DNA of 64,000 nucleotides from Candidatus Pullichristensenella stercorigallinarum (GTDB lineage: Bacteria > Bacillota > Clostridia > Christensenellales > Aristaeellaceae). Location of the stretch: assembly GCA_018712945.1 (NCBI GenBank), contig DVFZ01000033.1, forward strand, positions 43,795-107,794, written 5' to 3'. Positions within the stretch are counted from its first letter, which is position 1, and each line of letters begins with the position of its first letter. Positions 3,011 through 64,000 of the stretch are shown here, in pieces. A program made the translations under genes and the position numbers. Below the pieces are notes generated by a model. That model saw only the letters and a program-made list of their open reading frames with translations, ran no database searches and had not been told where the DNA came from.

Positions 3011-3673
3011 TTGTCTGACACGATTGACCGCGAAAAGCTGGAAGATACGAACAACGAGTACAAAGACACCGCCCCGGAAGAATCCGAAGCCGCGGCGGCG
3101 GAGATGCCTGCTGATCCGCTTGAACCGGCGAAGCAGGAGGGGGTGGAGGAATCTGCGGCAGAAGAGCCGGAAACCGCGGAGCAGTTTCCCAGGATCGCCC
3201 CGGAGGATTTGCCTTCGCAGACAATTAAGGATATCCCCTACGTGGAGGATGACCTGCCTACGCTGGAGGACGACGCGCCTTTGGACAAAGGTAAGCTGTA
3301 TAATTATGTCTCCAGGATGGACGACAAGCAGTTCCGCCGCGCGCAGATCATTTTTGGCGTCGTGCTTGGCGCGTTGGCGGCTATTTGCATAATTGTTCCC
3401 TTCCCGGGGGAGGACGCCGCCAGCGCCAGCATGTGGAACTTTGTCATCGCCTTGCTTATTGTAACCTGGCTGCCGCGCTATATAGAACGCAAGATCGAAC
3501 AGCGCTTGCCGGTTGCTCAGAAATGGATGTTGATCGTATTTGCCGTTGGCATGGTCGCTTCCATCGGCATTGGGGCCCTGCAGGGCAATTTCTCGCAGAC
3601 GGTTTCGGCGTCTCCCAGCCCGTCGCCTGAGGTAAGCGCAACCCCGGCGCCGTCCGTAACCCCGGCGCCATAG
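3011..3673 (+). CDS. Hypothetical membrane protein with acidic N-terminus
   Basis: TTG start with RBS cggagga about 8 nt upstream; acidic N-terminal region followed by three hydrophobic segments and a P/S/T-rich tail. Confidence 0.7.
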   Translation: MSDTIDREKLEDTNNEYKDTAPEESEAAAAEMPADPLEPAKQEGVEESAAEEPETAEQFPRIAPEDLPSQTIKDIPYVEDDLPTLEDDAPLDKGKLYNYVSRMDDKQFRRAQIIFGVVLGALAAICIIVPFPGEDAASASMWNFVIALLIVTWLPRYIERKIEQRLPVAQKWMLIVFAVGMVASIGIGALQGNFSQTVSASPSPSPEVSATPAPSVTPAP

Positions 3674-3682
3674 CAGCAAAGC

Positions 3683-3711
3683 AAAACCGGGCTGCAAGGC
3701 CCGGTTTTTTT
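3683..3711 (+). terminator. Intrinsic terminator
   Basis: aaccgggc-tgcaag-gcccggttttttt directly after the 3011-3673 ORF. Confidence 0.85.
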
Positions 3712-3854
3712 GTGCGCGCGCAACATGGCCCTTGCCGTACTTTTGACACAGCTCTATTGCGAACCGCTGAAGTGTTTTACAGAATTCTGAATATACGGAT
3801 ACAAAAAGCACTGTTTTGTCATTTCTCACGGCTTGTTCATGTATAATACTGCAT

Positions 3855-5189
3855 ATGAAACACAGCAACGATCAATTTGACAAGAATATGTCGGGCAGGG
3901 CGGCTCGCGCGGCGCGCCGCCGCGCCGAACAGCGAGGTATGCGTCTGACGGCCGCGCTGTGCGCCGTGCTTAGCGTGGCGCTCGTCTGTATGCTAGCCGT
4001 GCTTTTCAACGGCGGGGGGAATAGCCCTGCCCCGGACAACACGGCCATACAGGCCGCCGCGACGCCTGTGGAAACGGCTTCCGTTTCCGCCGCTACCGCC
4101 GCGGTGACACAAGAAGCGTCTACCGCCGCCCCAACGCCGTTGCCTACGCCGCTGGATGGCGGCTTGGTTGCGCCCACACAGAGTGTGGAACCGGCCGATG
4201 CGGGGCGGCAGACGGGCGGCGAGGTGCCCGTTCTGGAAACCGAGGAGGAACTCACCCGCACGACAATCCTGATTTCCGCGGCGGGGGATTGTACGCTCGG
4301 CGGCGACGTCAATTCCAGCAGCGGCGGGCGCTTTTCGCAGTATGCGGATGAATATGGTCTGGATTACTTCTTTGAAAACGTGCGCGATATCTTTGCCGCG
4401 GACGATTTTACCGTCGTCAACCTCGAAGGGCCGCTGACCACGCAAACCTCCAAACGCTCCGGACGGCAGTTCAACTTCCGCGGCGACCCGGAATATGTAA
4501 AAATCCTTTCCGGCTCGAGCGTGGAGGTGTGCTCGCTGGCCAATAACCACGCCCTTGATTTCAAGAACGCCGGTCTGAGCGATACCGCCGCCAATCTGGA
4601 AAGTGTAGGCGTGGGCGCGGCAGGCTACGATAACGCCTGGTATGGCGAAAAGGATGGCGTGCGCGTCTGTTTTTTGAGCTTTACCGAGTGGGATTATAGC
4701 GCCGACGCCATTGCCGAGCGCGTTCGCCAGGAAAAGGAAAACAGCGATTTGGTCATCGTCTCCGTGCACTGGGGCGAGGAACTGCGCAACCGCGCTACTT
4801 CCACGCAGGAGCGCTATGGCCACGCCATTATCGACGCGGGCGCGGATTTGGTGCTCGGCCATCATCCGCACGTCCTGGGCGGCATCGAGCAGTATAAGGG
4901 CAAATACATCGTTTACAGCCTCGCCAATTTCTGCTTTGGCGGCAATTCCAATCCCAACGACAAGGATACGATGATCTTCCAACAGACCTTCGTTGTCGAT
5001 GGCGCGGGCAATGTTTCCGATGGCGGCATCAACATCATTCCCTGCTCCATCAGTTCAGTTTCCTCCACCAACAACTATCAGCCCACGCCCCTGACCGGCG
5101 ATGCGGCCGCGGCGGTCATCGACAAGGTTTCCTCCTATTCGACGGTTGAAGAAATTCTCTGGATGGACAGTTATACCGGCAGGCGCTGA
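3855..5189 (+). CDS. CapA family protein (poly-gamma-glutamate synthesis-type metallophosphatase)
   Basis: N-terminal TM then 'ILISAAGDCTLGGD', 'VNLEGPLT', 'SLANNHALDF', 'VSVHWGEE', 'LVLGHHPHVLGGIE' signatures of CapA. Confidence 0.9.
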   Translation: MKHSNDQFDKNMSGRAARAARRRAEQRGMRLTAALCAVLSVALVCMLAVLFNGGGNSPAPDNTAIQAAATPVETASVSAATAAVTQEASTAAPTPLPTPLDGGLVAPTQSVEPADAGRQTGGEVPVLETEEELTRTTILISAAGDCTLGGDVNSSSGGRFSQYADEYGLDYFFENVRDIFAADDFTVVNLEGPLTTQTSKRSGRQFNFRGDPEYVKILSGSSVEVCSLANNHALDFKNAGLSDTAANLESVGVGAAGYDNAWYGEKDGVRVCFLSFTEWDYSADAIAERVRQEKENSDLVIVSVHWGEELRNRATSTQERYGHAIIDAGADLVLGHHPHVLGGIEQYKGKYIVYSLANFCFGGNSNPNDKDTMIFQQTFVVDGAGNVSDGGINIIPCSISSVSSTNNYQPTPLTGDAAAAVIDKVSSYSTVEEILWMDSYTGRR

Positions 5190-57716: not shown

Positions 57717-60700
57717 ATGGCAGAGAATGTATTTGAAGCAGTCAAGCAGTCGGTCAGCACCAGAGAAGCGGCAGAGTTTTACGGGATAAAAGTCAGTCGA
57801 ACTGGCATGGCCTGCTGTCCATTTCACGATGATAAGAACCCCAGTATGAAGGTAGACCAGCGTTACCACTGCTTTGGATGCGGTGCAGATGGGGATGTGA
57901 TCGACTTTACCGCAAAACTCTTTGACCTCTCCCCAAAAGAAGCGGCGGAGAAACTGGCACAGGACTTTGGCCTGATCTATGACAGTCAGGCCCCTCCCCG
58001 CAGGAGGTATGTCCGGCAGAAAACCGAGGCACAGCAGTTTCGGGAGGACCGGCAGAGGTGTTATCGCATACTGTCCGATTACTACTATCTGCTGAAAAAA
58101 TGGGAGGCCGACAATTCTCCCCAGACACCGGAGGAAGAACCGCACACCCGCTTTGTGGAAGCAATCCATAAGAAAACCTATGTGGAGTACCTGCTGGATC
58201 TTTTTCTTTATGAAAGTGAAGAAGAACAAAAGGCATGGATTGCAGAACACACAGCAGAAATCACACACTTGGAAAGGAGATTGAAAATCATGGCTGAGAA
58301 CAAACCCACCAACCGAGAACGACTAAGGGAAATCACAGACGGCATCGAGCAGGGCATCAAGGAACTGTTTGAGAGTGAAAAGTATATGCGCTATCTGTCC
58401 GTTATGTCCCGCTTCCACCGCTATTCGGTAAACAACACCATGCTCATCTATATGCAGAAGCCGGACGCCACTTTGGTAGCCGGATACAATAAGTGGAAAG
58501 ACCAGTTTGAGCGTCATGTTAAAAAGGGAGAGCATGGCATTACCATCATCGCCCCCACACCGTACAAGAAGAAAATCGAGGAGCAGAAACTGGACCCGGA
58601 TACCAAGGCTCCGATTCTGGATAAAGACGGAAAGATCATCACAGAGGAAAAAGAAATCGAAATCCCCATGTTCCGCCCGGTCAAGGTCTTTGATGTGAGC
58701 CAGACTGATGGGAAACCTTTGCCGGAGCTTGCTTCCTCCCTTTCCGGCAATGTACCAAATTATGAGGCATTCATGGAGGCCCTGCGCCGCAGCGTGCCGG
58801 TGCCGATCACTTTTGAAGCAATGGCCGCCGATACGGACGGTTATTTTTCTGCCGATCATCAGAAAATCGCCATTCGTCAGGGCATGAGTGAGGTGCAGAC
58901 GGTTTCAGCCACAGTACACGAGATTGCCCACAGCAAGCTCCACAATCAGAAAAAGATTCAGATTGCCAATGACGAGCAATATCAGGAGATCGAGATGTTT
59001 GATAAACCCGGTCTGTTCTCCAACGGGCGGATTGCCCGTGATGATTTGCCGGAGGGCGTTTATTGCTATGACCTGCGCGGTTCTGACTACGACCCCGGAG
59101 AGCCGGTCTGTGTAGAAGAACGAGTGGTTGTAAACCATGCAGGTTCCGTTCTGCTGACAGAGCCGCTGGAGCTGGCGGAAGATGGACGCCTGATGCTGAC
59201 CGAGGAAGAAGGGCTGAATTTTGTTGGCGGCTTTTCTACCCTCGCCCAGTTTTTGCAAGAACAGAGGAAAGACCGCCACACGGAGGAAGTGGAGGCTGAA
59301 AGCATCTCCTATGCAGTCTGCAAGTATTTTGGCATCGAGACCGGAGAAAACAGCTTCGGCTATATTGCAAGCTGGAGTCGGGGCAAGGAACTGAAAGAGC
59401 TGAGAGCCAGTTTGGAGACCATCAATAAGACCTCCGGCACTTTGATCTCTGACATTGAGCGCCACTATAAGGAAATCTGCAAAGAGCGTGGAATTGACCC
59501 CAATGCAAAGGCAGAGCCGGAAACCGCCCCGATAGAGCAGCCGACCGGCAATCTAACCTACTATGTAGCAGAGTGCATGGAGTTTCCAAACCTCGGAGAA
59601 TACCACGATAACCTGTCTTTGGAGGAAGCGGTCCGCATTTATCAGGAAATTCCGGCAGAGCGAATGAACGGGATCAAGGGCATTGGTTTTGAGCTGAAAG
59701 ACGGAAGCGACTATGAAGGACCTTTTCCGATTTTGACCGGGCAGACCATTGACCTGGATACCATCCAGGCAATCGACTATTACCGTGACAATCCGCTGGT
59801 GCAGAAAGCGGTAAAGGAACTGGCGGCGGCCATACCGGAAATGGAGGTGCTGGGGGCGGACGCCAACCAGCAGGAGGCTTTGTTTCTGATCGACGATGCC
59901 ACCTATCTTCATATCCAGCCCTGTGACAGCGGCTGGGATTATACCCTTTATGATGCTGCGTCCATGAAAGAGATGGATGGCGGTCAGATGGATATGCCGG
60001 AGCTTTCCCGCATGAAGGCAGTTCTTCAGATTTGTGATGACAACGATTTGGGCAGAGACTCGGTAAAATACGCACCGTTGTCCATGATTGAGACCTTGCA
60101 GGAAGCTGCCTATCAGCAGATGCAGGCAGAGGTCGGTCAGATGGCCGCTTCTTCCCAGCTGCCGGAGGCACAGGAGCAGGCACTGGATGAATACCCCATG
60201 CCCGATGAGCAGGTCTCCACACCGGATATGCAGGAATACGGCTACTCCTATGATGGGATGCTTCCTGTTACCAGAGAACGGGCGCTGGAACTGGATGCCG
60301 CCGATTTGACCGTCTATGTGCTGCATGAGGATAATACGGAGAGCATGGTGTTTGACCCGCAGGAAATCATGGATCATGGCGGTCTTTTTGGCGTGGATCG
60401 TGAGGAATGGGAGAAAAGCCCTCAGTTCCACGAAAAGGTCATGGAGCGTCAGGAACATCAGCAGGAACGAGAACAGGCATTTCTCTCCCAGAACAGAGAT
60501 TGCTTTGCCATCTATCAGGTAAGCCGTGACGATCCGCAGAATGTGCGCTTTATGAATCTGGACTGGTTAAAGTCCCATGGCATTTCCATAGACCGCAGCA
60601 ATTATGACCTAATCTACACCGCTCCGCTGAGTGAGTCTGGCACTGTGCCGGAGCAGCTGGAAAAACTCTATCAGCAATTCAATCTGGAAAAACCTGTGGA

Positions 60701-61085
60701 CTATCACAGCCCCTCCATGAGCGTCAGCGACATCGTTGCGATCAAGCAGGACGGTAAGGTATCCTGTCATTACTGTGACAGCGTTGGTTTTACCCAGATA
60801 CCCGGATTCTTGCCGCAAAATCCGCTGAAAAATGCGGAGATGGCCGTGGAGGACGATTACGGCATGATCGACGGCATCATCAACAATGGCACAAAAGAGC
60901 CTACGGTGGCAGAGCTGGAACAGCAGGCCCGAAGCGGTCAGCCCATTTCCCTGATGGACTTGGCTGACGCCGTTCATAGGGAGGAACGGGAAAAGAAAAA
61001 ATCCGTTGTGGATCAGCTGAAAAGCCAGCCCAAAGCAGAACACAAAAAGACAGCACCCAAAAAGAGTGCGGAAAGGGAGATTTAA
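57717..61085 (+). CDS. CHC2 zinc-finger primase-like domain fused to ArdC-N/LtrC-like polyvalent protein
   Basis: N-term 'GMACCPFHDDKNPSMKVDQRYHCFGCGADGDVIDF' (CHC2); then 'YLSVMSRFHRYSVNNTMLIYMQKPDATLVAGYNKWKDQFERHVKKGEHGI' (ArdC-N-like), 'ATVHEIAHSKLHN' (HExxH). Confidence 0.88.
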   Translation: MAENVFEAVKQSVSTREAAEFYGIKVSRTGMACCPFHDDKNPSMKVDQRYHCFGCGADGDVIDFTAKLFDLSPKEAAEKLAQDFGLIYDSQAPPRRRYVRQKTEAQQFREDRQRCYRILSDYYYLLKKWEADNSPQTPEEEPHTRFVEAIHKKTYVEYLLDLFLYESEEEQKAWIAEHTAEITHLERRLKIMAENKPTNRERLREITDGIEQGIKELFESEKYMRYLSVMSRFHRYSVNNTMLIYMQKPDATLVAGYNKWKDQFERHVKKGEHGITIIAPTPYKKKIEEQKLDPDTKAPILDKDGKIITEEKEIEIPMFRPVKVFDVSQTDGKPLPELASSLSGNVPNYEAFMEALRRSVPVPITFEAMAADTDGYFSADHQKIAIRQGMSEVQTVSATVHEIAHSKLHNQKKIQIANDEQYQEIEMFDKPGLFSNGRIARDDLPEGVYCYDLRGSDYDPGEPVCVEERVVVNHAGSVLLTEPLELAEDGRLMLTEEEGLNFVGGFSTLAQFLQEQRKDRHTEEVEAESISYAVCKYFGIETGENSFGYIASWSRGKELKELRASLETINKTSGTLISDIERHYKEICKERGIDPNAKAEPETAPIEQPTGNLTYYVAECMEFPNLGEYHDNLSLEEAVRIYQEIPAERMNGIKGIGFELKDGSDYEGPFPILTGQTIDLDTIQAIDYYRDNPLVQKAVKELAAAIPEMEVLGADANQQEALFLIDDATYLHIQPCDSGWDYTLYDAASMKEMDGGQMDMPELSRMKAVLQICDDNDLGRDSVKYAPLSMIETLQEAAYQQMQAEVGQMAASSQLPEAQEQALDEYPMPDEQVSTPDMQEYGYSYDGMLPVTRERALELDAADLTVYVLHEDNTESMVFDPQEIMDHGGLFGVDREEWEKSPQFHEKVMERQEHQQEREQAFLSQNRDCFAIYQVSRDDPQNVRFMNLDWLKSHGISIDRSNYDLIYTAPLSESGTVPEQLEKLYQQFNLEKPVDYHSPSMSVSDIVAIKQDGKVSCHYCDSVGFTQIPGFLPQNPLKNAEMAVEDDYGMIDGIINNGTKEPTVAELEQQARSGQPISLMDLADAVHREEREKKKSVVDQLKSQPKAEHKKTAPKKSAEREI

Positions 61086-61086
61086 T

Positions 61087-61302
61087 ATGGGAAACTTTAC
61101 TTTTGAGGAAATGAACCTGATGTGCATTTACAATACCGGCAGCCGCACCGGATTGATCGACAGCCTGCGTGAGATGCGCGGCGAGCTTTCGCCGGAGGAA
61201 ACGGAACTGAGGGAACTGACCGACAGCACCCTTACGAAGCTCTGTGCGATGACCGATGAGGACTTTGCCCAGCTGGAGCTGTACCCGGATTTTGACCAGT
61301 AA
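61087..61302 (+). CDS. Transposon-transfer assisting (TTRAP) family protein
   Basis: 'FTFEEMNLMCIYNTGSRTGLIDSLREMRGELSPEETELRELTDSTLTKLCAMTDEDFAQLELYPDFDQ'. Confidence 0.82.
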   Translation: MGNFTFEEMNLMCIYNTGSRTGLIDSLREMRGELSPEETELRELTDSTLTKLCAMTDEDFAQLELYPDFDQ

Positions 61303-61379: not shown

Positions 61380-64000
61380 ATGCCAACCAAAGCTGAACTA
61401 TATGCACAGATGGCGGACAAGGTGGCAACACAGCTCACGGGGAGCTGGCAGGAATGGGCGGGATTTCTCACCACTGCTTCCCGTCTTTACAAGTACCCGT
61501 TCCATGAGCAGCTGATGATCTACGCCCAGCGACCGGACGCCACCGCCTGTGCAGAGTACGATTTGTGGAATGAAAAGATGGGCCGGTATGTAAGACGCGG
61601 CTCCAAGGGGATCGCTCTGGTGGACGATTCCGGGGACAGACCGCGCCTGCGCTATGTCTTTGACATTTCCGACACCGGAACCCGTGAACATTCCCGCACT
61701 CCCTGGCTGTGGCAGCTGGAGGAGCGCCATCTGGATTCGGTGCAGGCCATGCTGGAGCGCACCTACGATGTTTCCGGTGAATACCTTGCCGGACAGCTCA
61801 CCGAGGTAGCCGGAAAACTGGCTGAGGAATACTGGACAGAGCATCAGCAGGACTTTTTCTATATCGTTGACGGTTCCTTTTTGGAGGAATATGATGAGTA
61901 TAACATCGGAGTGCAGTTTAAGGCAGCCGCCACCGTCAGCATCACTTATGCTTTGATGTCCCGCTGCGGACTGGAGCCGGAACGCTACTTCGACCACGAA
62001 GATTTCATGGCGATCTTTGATTTCAACACCCCGTCCACCATCGGGGCGCTGGGAACAGCGGTCAGCCAGATCAACCAGCAGGTGCTGCGGCAGATCGGCG
62101 TTACCGTCCGAAATGCAGAGCGCGAAGCCAACCAAGAAAGGAGCAAGCAAGATGAACAATCCCATGACCTACATCCAGAACGGAGACTATCTGATTCCCG
62201 ACCTGAAGCTGAGCCAGCAGCCGGAGAAACCCCTGGGCAAGTACGGAAGGATGAGGAAAACCTATCTGAAGGAACACCGTCCCATCCTCTACAACCAGAT
62301 GTTGCTGAGCGAGAAGCTGTACCCGCACCTTCTGGAGATCGACGAGACCGCCCAGAACAGACTGGAGCAGATGATACCCCAGCTGGCGAAGGAAGCGGAA
62401 GCCACCGAGGAACTGAAAGCCAGCAATCCCATGAAGTGGGTGGGGCTGATGAACACCTGCAAAGCCCAGGCCGAGGAAATCCTGATGGCGGAGCTTATCA
62501 ACAGCTGACCCTAAACCTGTTCCTCTCCGAAGCGGAACAGATCCAATCCATAGATGAAGCAGAGAATGTAGCGCATACATCCTCTGCTTTTTCTTTTGCT
62601 CAAAATGACATCGACCATGTGCTGCGTTTGGGCGGCAATACAGACCGCCAGAGGGAGCGTGTGGTTGCAGCCTTTGAAAAGCAGAAAACCACCGCAGAAA
62701 TTGCCGAGATACTGAAAACGCTGTACCACGGCGGCAACGGCCTTGGCAGTGTGAGCGCATGGTATGCCGAGGATGGTATCCATCTTTCCCATGGGAAGTC
62801 TGTCCGTTATGACAGGTCTGCCCAGGTCATTTCCTGGGAGAGCGCCGCAGAGCGTATCGGAGAGCTTTTGGAGAGCGGCCAGTTTGCCTCCAATGTAGAA
62901 CTTACAGAAGCGGCAGGCTATGAACGATCCCTCCTTTCAGAAAAGCTCTGGCATCTGTACCACGATTTCAGCGAGGAAGCCAGAGAAGCCGGATATTTGT
63001 CCTGCCTGTCAGAGATCAAAGGAAATGGGTTCCCGGAGGAGACCCGCCGCCTGACGGAGCAGCTGAGTGACCCGGCTTTCCGCCAGACACTCAAGGAAGA
63101 ATACGCTGCCTTCTGGACTGCCTATCAGCAGGACCGTGACCTGTTGCGTTTTCATTACCATAGACCAAGGGAGATCTGGGAGAACCTGAAGGACCTTGAC
63201 CTGCCACGCAGGACCTTTTCTTCAGACCTTTCCCAAGTGCCAACCGTTCAGCGCTTCATTACCGAGGATGAGATTGACGCCGCCATAACCGGCGGCAGCA
63301 GTTTTGCCGGAGGAAAAGGTCGTATCTATGCCTTCTTCATGGAAAACCACACAGACAAAGAAAAAGTGAGATTCCTCAAAGACGAGTATGGCATTGGCGG
63401 ACGCTCTCATGCACTGTCCGGCGCAACACACAGCGGTGAAGATCATGACGGGAAAGGGCTGCACTATAAAAAGCAGGACTGCCCGGATGTTCACTTGAAC
63501 TGGGAAAATGTTGCCAAGCGCATTACCTCTCTTGTCCAGAAGGGCCGCTATCTTACCGAACAGGAACAGGCGCAGTATGACAAAATCCAGGCTGAAAAGG
63601 AACTGGCCGAAGAAGATGCCATCCAAGCCCAGCAGCCGGAGGTGGAGGAAGAAACTCCAAAGCCCACCCTTCGGGAGCAGTTTGAACAGTATAAGCCTGT
63701 GGTAACTGCCGCTATTTCCGAGGATGCCGCATACCGCAATGCCTGCGGTCATTCTGACCGTGAAAATGCTGTCATCGAGGGCAATGCTGCTGTGCGCCGT
63801 GCGGTCCTTGGTTCTAAGGATATGGAGCTGATCCGCCTTTATTCTGATATACCGGAGTTCCGCCAGCGTCTGCACCGGGAAGTGATCGACGAGACCTATC
63901 CAAAGCTCCATGAGCTTCTGCGCCCTCTTTCTCAGGAAGATATTGATACTGCCCTTTGTGCATGGAACGGCAATATCGAGAGTAAACACGCTGTTGTCCG
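61380..64000 (+). CDS. Giant ICE protein with N-terminal ArdC-N-like domain (helicase/methylase-type polyvalent protein), 3' truncated by the window
   Basis: ATG at 61380; frame stays open to 64000: 'FLTTASRLYKYPFHEQLMIYAQRPDATACAEYDLWNEKMGRYVRRGSKGIALV...HDGKGLHYKKQDCPDVHLNWENVAKRITSLVQKGRYL...'. Not in the ORF track because no stop lies in the window. Confidence 0.85.
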   Translation, partial: MPTKAELYAQMADKVATQLTGSWQEWAGFLTTASRLYKYPFHEQLMIYAQRPDATACAEYDLWNEKMGRYVRRGSKGIALVDDSGDRPRLRYVFDISDTGTREHSRTPWLWQLEERHLDSVQAMLERTYDVSGEYLAGQLTEVAGKLAEEYWTEHQQDFFYIVDGSFLEEYDEYNIGVQFKAAATVSITYALMSRCGLEPERYFDHEDFMAIFDFNTPSTIGALGTAVSQINQQVLRQIGVTVRNAEREANQERSKQDEQSHDLHPERRLSDSRPEAEPAAGETPGQVRKDEENLSEGTPSHPLQPDVAEREAVPAPSGDRRDRPEQTGADDTPAGEGSGSHRGTESQQSHEVGGADEHLQSPGRGNPDGGAYQQLTLNLFLSEAEQIQSIDEAENVAHTSSAFSFAQNDIDHVLRLGGNTDRQRERVVAAFEKQKTTAEIAEILKTLYHGGNGLGSVSAWYAEDGIHLSHGKSVRYDRSAQVISWESAAERIGELLESGQFASNVELTEAAGYERSLLSEKLWHLYHDFSEEAREAGYLSCLSEIKGNGFPEETRRLTEQLSDPAFRQTLKEEYAAFWTAYQQDRDLLRFHYHRPREIWENLKDLDLPRRTFSSDLSQVPTVQRFITEDEIDAAITGGSSFAGGKGRIYAFFMENHTDKEKVRFLKDEYGIGGRSHALSGATHSGEDHDGKGLHYKKQDCPDVHLNWENVAKRITSLVQKGRYLTEQEQAQYDKIQAEKELAEEDAIQAQQPEVEEETPKPTLREQFEQYKPVVTAAISEDAAYRNACGHSDRENAVIEGNAAVRRAVLGSKDMELIRLYSDIPEFRQRLHREVIDETYPKLHELLRPLSQEDIDTALCAWNGNIESKHAVV
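62152..62508 (+). CDS. tnpV: TnpV-like protein, nested out of frame (+1) within the giant ORF
   Basis: MNNPMTYIQNGDYLIPDLKLSQQPEKPLGKYGRMRKTYLKEHRPILYNQMLLSEKLYPHLLEIDETAQNRLEQMIPQLAKEAEATEELKASNPMKWVGLMNTCKAQAEEILMAELINS; RBS aaggagc before ATG. Confidence 0.85.
   Translation: MNNPMTYIQNGDYLIPDLKLSQQPEKPLGKYGRMRKTYLKEHRPILYNQMLLSEKLYPHLLEIDETAQNRLEQMIPQLAKEAEATEELKASNPMKWVGLMNTCKAQAEEILMAELINS

Follow-up and report, generated by a model that had tools for sequence, protein, structure and literature searches.

A tnpV gene nested out of frame in the giant methylase-helicase gene of Tn1549-like elements

Members of the TnpV family (PF14198) are known from Tn4451, Tn4453 and related elements and have been described as separate genes, and for the TnpV protein of Tn4451 an Xis-like role in excision has been postulated (PMC3158075). 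The Tn1549-like polyvalent proteins described by Iyer et al. 2017 (PMC5512222) provide a second point of reference because there, as here, a giant methylase-SNF2 protein is found beside a polyvalent protein with LPD16, LPD28, ArdcN and YodL domains; neither TnpV nor the word "overlapping" occurs in the main text of that paper (PMC5512222). In the window, i.e. the whole stretch of 64,000 nucleotides analyzed here, the two meet in one gene: a TnpV that aligns over its whole length with the products of free-standing transposon tnpV genes is encoded out of frame inside a giant gene, and the same nesting is found in all tnpV-containing relatives that carry the N-terminal domain (ND) of the giant protein, unlike the separate genes described before. 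To our knowledge, conserved and fully nested out-of-frame gene pairs have rarely been documented in bacteria, and in the open-access literature searched no report of the tnpV/giant gene overlap was found.

We suggest that the locus is very probably an ancient and conserved dual-coding region in the giant methylase-helicase gene carried by Tn1549-like conjugative elements and by plasmids related to them, and that TnpV is made from it by internal initiation. The sequence comparisons on which this proposal is built establish the nesting itself, the relation between the two frames, selection on TnpV, the avoidance of stop codons in the giant frame, the conservation of the ribosome-binding site and the non-monophyly of the free copies.

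The locus and its relatives

The giant gene begins with an ATG at position 61380 and its frame is open to the end of the contig (61380-64000, + strand, incomplete), which coincides with the end of the window and, in an assembly of 130 contigs, cuts the gene in its own genome. In complete relatives the giant protein has a length of 2,740-3,160 aa (about 2,900 aa) and contains Eco57I-like N6-methylase and SNF2 helicase domains, before both of which the copy in the window is cut. In one relative, L008, the methylase is found near residue 1,500 and the helicase near residues 2,060-2,650, with SNF2-rel_dom scoring above its profile cut-off and the Eco57I-like domain just below it. Judged by the methylase-SNF2 dyad and by its mobile-element neighbors, the giant protein is a polyvalent protein of Tn1549-like elements. 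These neighbors lie upstream on the same strand and in the same cluster and include a second polyvalent protein with a CHC2 zinc finger and ArdcN, LPD28, LPD16, YodL and DUF4316 domains (57717-61085) and a gene of the TTRAP family, coding for a putative transposon-transfer assisting protein (61087-61302, + strand); a topoisomerase gene is a further neighbor. The ND of the giant protein is encoded at 61380-62150 (+ strand). In RefSeq plasmids the ND of relatives carries the name ArdC-like, and a Pfam search gave no match for the ND of the window or for seven distant NDs.

The tnpV gene (62152-62508, + strand) lies in the +1 frame of the giant gene, starts with ATG, ends with a TGA at 62506-62508 and codes for 118 aa. 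It matches PF14198 over profile positions 1-111 of 111 with 148.8 bits (E 6.9e-44; curated cut-off 27). The claim of the preliminary description that a TnpV-like open reading frame lies wholly within the giant frame is confirmed, and the coordinates given there are right within a few bases. In the giant frame the bases of tnpV are read as a linker (62151-62507, + strand) that comprises residues 258-376. Three copies of tnpV were detected in the genome of the window and all three are nested.

Among 195 unique tnpV loci, tnpV is nested in all 118 that have the ND upstream and free-standing in all 77 that lack it. Because the presence of the ND is a criterion separate from nesting, the definition is not circular, and the ND predicts nesting perfectly. 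Both frames are open over the whole overlap in 118 of the 118 ND-linked loci, and the relation between the frames of ND and tnpV is the same directly in 117 and, once a broken ND frame is allowed for, also in the remaining copy from Listeria. In this copy (L246, on a Listeria plasmid, 3464-4517) a frame change interrupts the ND, with the frames of tnpV and linker still in their usual relation. A further set of loci, which partly overlaps the first, comprises 20 nested genes with the ND and 35 free genes without it, and each of the best 80 loci of a genome scan (80/80) has tnpV nested in the giant gene with the same frame relation and an uninterrupted giant frame.

The arrangement is identical in 60 unique close relatives, drawn from many assemblies, and recurs in giants in which the ND is only ~25% identical to that of the window. 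Nested tnpV genes are found in Clostridia, in Bacilli (Cohnella, Virgibacillus, Enterococcus, Listeria and Streptococcus), in Tissierellia (Anaerococcus) and in Selenomonas, including distant plasmids; in an element of Streptococcus agalactiae the TnpV reading scores weakly against the profile (15.7 bits), yet it has the expected frame and place. An artefact of assembly, in particular an indel that joined the frames wrongly as the preliminary description had considered, is ruled out by the identical arrangement in many independent assemblies. Three ND-bearing giants (L196, L231 and L199), few and distant, are without tnpV and have an unrelated linker in its place. Given L196 and the more distant L231 and L199, TnpV is not indispensable to the giant protein.

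Amino-acid constraint and predicted products

To estimate selection, sites of 60 unique close relatives were classed by their effect in both frames. With this home-made version of an overlapping-gene method, in which near-copies make the pairs non-independent, dNN/dSN in the overlap is 0.21 (bootstrap interval 0.15-0.33) for the TnpV frame, indicating purifying selection, and dNN/dNS is 1.48 (0.95-2.35) for the giant frame, indicating no detectable amino-acid constraint. Outside the overlap the pattern is reversed, with values of 0.11 in the ND and 0.13 downstream for the giant frame and ~0.7 for the frame in the phase of TnpV. Along 31 whole giants dS is ~0.45 and is lower at codons 241-420, with an about ten-fold drop to 0.046 at codons 301-360, and codons 232-375 form the only stretch of at least 60 codons over which all 31 giants have an alternative sense frame open.

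The predicted products agree with the contrast drawn in the preliminary description between an ordered, helical TnpV and a hydrophilic linker. The AlphaFold2 model of TnpV has a mean pLDDT of 88.9 and consists of a short hairpin followed by helices. Across relatives the linker is devoid of Cys and hydrophobic residues make up 12% of it, and residues 259-420 of the giant frame were modelled at pLDDT ~30, i.e. are predicted to be disordered, in a model that was built on a shallow alignment of 17 sequences and in which parts of the ND are also poor. Foldseek searches with the TnpV model returned no significant match in the PDB or among viral models (best viral E 0.81, TM 0.56), and a PDB sequence search with TnpV gave nothing meaningful. 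The weak fold matches, none with a significant E-value, were an uncharacterised protein of a siphovirus (TM 0.56) and a segment within a phage protein chunk of 1,093 residues.

At the end of the linker the giant frame reads QLTLNLF (62502-62522, + strand), which straddles the tnpV stop codon. In 8 of 56 diverse relatives QL[SD]LF occurs within 60 residues after the linker, with QLSLF at the site of QLTLNLF or slightly downstream. QLTLNLF and QLSLF resemble the known sliding-clamp-binding motif and, by this likeness, the giant protein of the mobile element may bind the sliding clamp of the host.

Origin and history of the nest

ND identity is correlated with the identity of the nested TnpV (Mantel 0.80, 0 of 2000 permutations), arguing that the nest has been inherited together with the giant gene. 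Based on these comparisons, the nest is ancient, going back to an ancestor shared by most giants of this type. In the TnpV tree, which has few columns and many weak forks and is weakly resolved at depth, free copies are scattered inside the nested diversity (13-14 changes, of which at least 5 are forced), and a single clade of free tnpV genes is rejected (p-AU 0.0001). The deep TnpV branches found are all nested in this unrooted tree, as read by midpoint rooting only. We suggest that probably at least some of the free tnpV genes of transposons are copies escaped from the nest, a history for which the support is no weaker than for simple capture. The scattered free copies would be accounted for most simply by repeated copying out of the nest, the alternative being exchange between free and nested genes by gene conversion. 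In one genome a free copy (L118) and a nested copy (L115) have exactly tnpV and 40 upstream bases in common, at 86% identity, as if this piece had been copied out alone.

Extending this to the family as a whole, the nested position may have been the ancestral home of TnpV since early Bacillota, with free tnpV genes as repeated escapes and the linker as a translated spacer under stop avoidance alone; we put forward this scenario tentatively and rate it slightly below an even chance. For the first formation of the nest, a single ancient capture or read-through fusion has to be considered, in which genes in the order ND-tnpV-methylase/helicase lost the stop codon of the first gene, whose frame then continued across tnpV into the following gene, fixing tnpV as an out-of-frame linker. 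This event, for which we regard the chances as balanced, concerns the first origin and is compatible with an ancient dual-coding region for the later history. TnpV is folded and constrained and the linker is disordered and unconstrained, as expected were the tnpV reading the older of the two, and the distant giants without tnpV (L196 and L231) have a different linker. However, none of the relatives found has the three genes separate and unfused, and L196 and L231, which form long branches inside the nested diversity in the ND tree, may be losses of tnpV. A giant without tnpV was also considered as the ancestral state and set aside given that only the distant L196, L231 and L199-type giants were found and that the trees are too long-branched to polarise the change. 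The idea of the preliminary description that an older tnpV was captured as an interdomain linker is upheld in one respect, in that the linker is a read-through of tnpV with no amino-acid constraint and no stops, and is not supported in another, namely capture from a free-standing gene: the nest is ancient and was inherited with the giant protein, and the free copies that lie at several places inside the nested diversity fit repeated escape.

Alternatively, TnpV would have been born de novo, as an overprint within the giant gene, and the free tnpV genes would be later exports. The nested state of all deep TnpV branches found (midpoint rooting only) and the failure of the free copies to form one clade are in line with such a birth, but we consider it unlikely. 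Proteins that arose de novo by overprinting are, as a rule, the disordered and less constrained partner, and TnpV, on the contrary, is the folded and constrained one; moreover, the tree is unrooted, with weak resolution in its deep part, and the Foldseek searches were without significant relatives either way. Given that TnpV is folded and constrained, we favor read-through of an older tnpV over birth inside the giant gene.

Proposed translation of both frames and comparison with known systems

In 56 diverse nested tnpV genes, 0 giant-frame stops are seen in the overlap, compared to ~127 expected from synonymous shuffling within genes. Such a stop would arise where a TnpV codon with T at its third position is followed by AA, AG or GA. 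In the nested genes T at the third position was used before these dinucleotides in 0 of 660 C/T choices and before other dinucleotides in 542 of 1549, compared to 286 of 997 before AA, AG or GA in free tnpV genes; because of kinship among the sequences, the P values of these tests are not to be taken literally. The ND, used as a control, has no such avoidance of T (0.407 vs 0.394). Together, the shuffling and the third-position test rule out that the giant frame is open by chance. The mildly lower use of T before these dinucleotides in free tnpV genes (0.287 vs 0.401) was considered as a fossil of nesting and this was rejected, as other open reading frames at the same loci avoid T to nearly the same degree (0.330 vs 0.410).

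The same data bear on the possibility that only TnpV matters, that the giant frame is open by an accident of codon use and that the giant is in fact two proteins. The lack of amino-acid constraint on the giant frame in the overlap would fit with this possibility, which nevertheless is highly improbable in view of the missing stops, the avoidance of risky T (0/660 vs 35% elsewhere), the mean of 4.5 stops that free tnpV genes hold in the frame corresponding to that of the giant, and the finding that ND and downstream homologous sequence are in one frame in every relative in which both were detected. We suggest that the amino acids of the giant frame in the overlap appear unconstrained and that its sole detectable requirement is to be free of stop codons. 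Amino-acid sequences under purifying selection in both frames are often taken as a sign of an overlapping pair and are not strictly required for one; here such selection was found in one frame. The preliminary description had held selection in a single frame against the overlap; for amino acids selection is indeed confined in this way, and the overlap stands since the giant frame avoids stops.

The tnpV gene has its own ribosome-binding site, as first proposed in that description: GAAAGGAG is located at 62136-62143 (+ strand), inside the giant coding frame. The corresponding positions -16 to -9 are 98-100% conserved in 60 relatives, with neighboring positions often near 50%, and the Arg codon within the site is AGG in 59 of the 60, AGG making up 11% of the Arg codons in the ND. 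Synthesis of TnpV as an ND-TnpV fusion by ribosomal frameshifting would be compatible with the close clade, in which the TnpV frame is open for ~26 codons upstream of the ATG; but the ribosome-binding site and the ATG are invariant in this clade, and in distant nested genes the TnpV frame often has a stop 0-10 codons before the ATG, these stops being no rarer there than in free genes, which makes such a fusion very unlikely.

From the conserved ribosome-binding site and the kept openness we infer that both frames are translated and that TnpV is a separate product arising by internal initiation. In this model, ribosomes from the giant start codon would cross the bases of tnpV in the -1 frame relative to tnpV, and this read-through would yield a disordered inter-domain spacer for which the only detectable requirement is the absence of stops. 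Other ribosomes would enter at the internal site GAAAGGAG, with the small helical protein TnpV as their product, and the giant protein and TnpV would be produced from one mRNA. The least certain step, and at present a doubtful one, is that TnpV might act jointly with the giant protein or its element in transfer or excision, a joint action in transfer being what the nested arrangement hints at.

Annotation pipelines tend to lose one gene of the pair, with the consequence that TnpV or the start of the giant gene is absent from public records. Plasmid records from Anaerococcus, Virgibacillus, Enterococcus and Ruminococcus have the SNF2 protein only, and in those from Cohnella, Monoglobus and Selenomonas TnpV is present and the giant is missing or broken, although the PLSDB gene table is incomplete and some of these absences may be those of the table rather than of the original record. 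In L236, L237, L238, L239, L245, L247, L248 and L249 the plasmid annotation drops or truncates one of the overlapping genes, and in the Cohnella record a "hypothetical protein" on the minus strand is annotated over the giant gene. That only the giant gene is real, with TnpV as an incidental reading or the frames misjoined by an assembly indel, has annotation alone in its favor, as RefSeq often lists just the SNF2 protein, and is refuted at the sequence level to the point of being virtually impossible by the constraint in the overlap (0.21 for the TnpV frame vs 1.48 for the giant frame), the full-length match to a curated family and the identical arrangement in many independent assemblies.

The nest is old and common in mobile elements of gut bacteria and its constraint is cleanly split, with a folded protein in one frame and mere openness in the other. 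It provides a natural test bed for the origin and persistence of overprinting and for the export of small mobile-element genes from larger ones. Compared to known systems, it is paralleled by comS, which lies in a distinct frame within the giant srfAB gene of one operon in Bacillus subtilis (PMC12915044); however, ComS is a small competence protein encoded in a surfactin-synthetase gene, whereas the tnpV pair is mobile and Bacillota-wide and tnpV also occurs free. The rpmH gene of Thermus is likewise fully nested, in rnpA, and both genes are translated (PMC9841429), but the two starts share one initiation site there, whereas the site of tnpV is separate and lies ~770 bases into the giant gene. 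Finally, Cas11 and RpnS are small proteins made by internal initiation in the gene of a large partner (PMC11899642, PMC10327210), as would be the case for TnpV; both are in frame with the large protein, whereas TnpV is out of frame and has no residues in common with the giant protein within which it is encoded.
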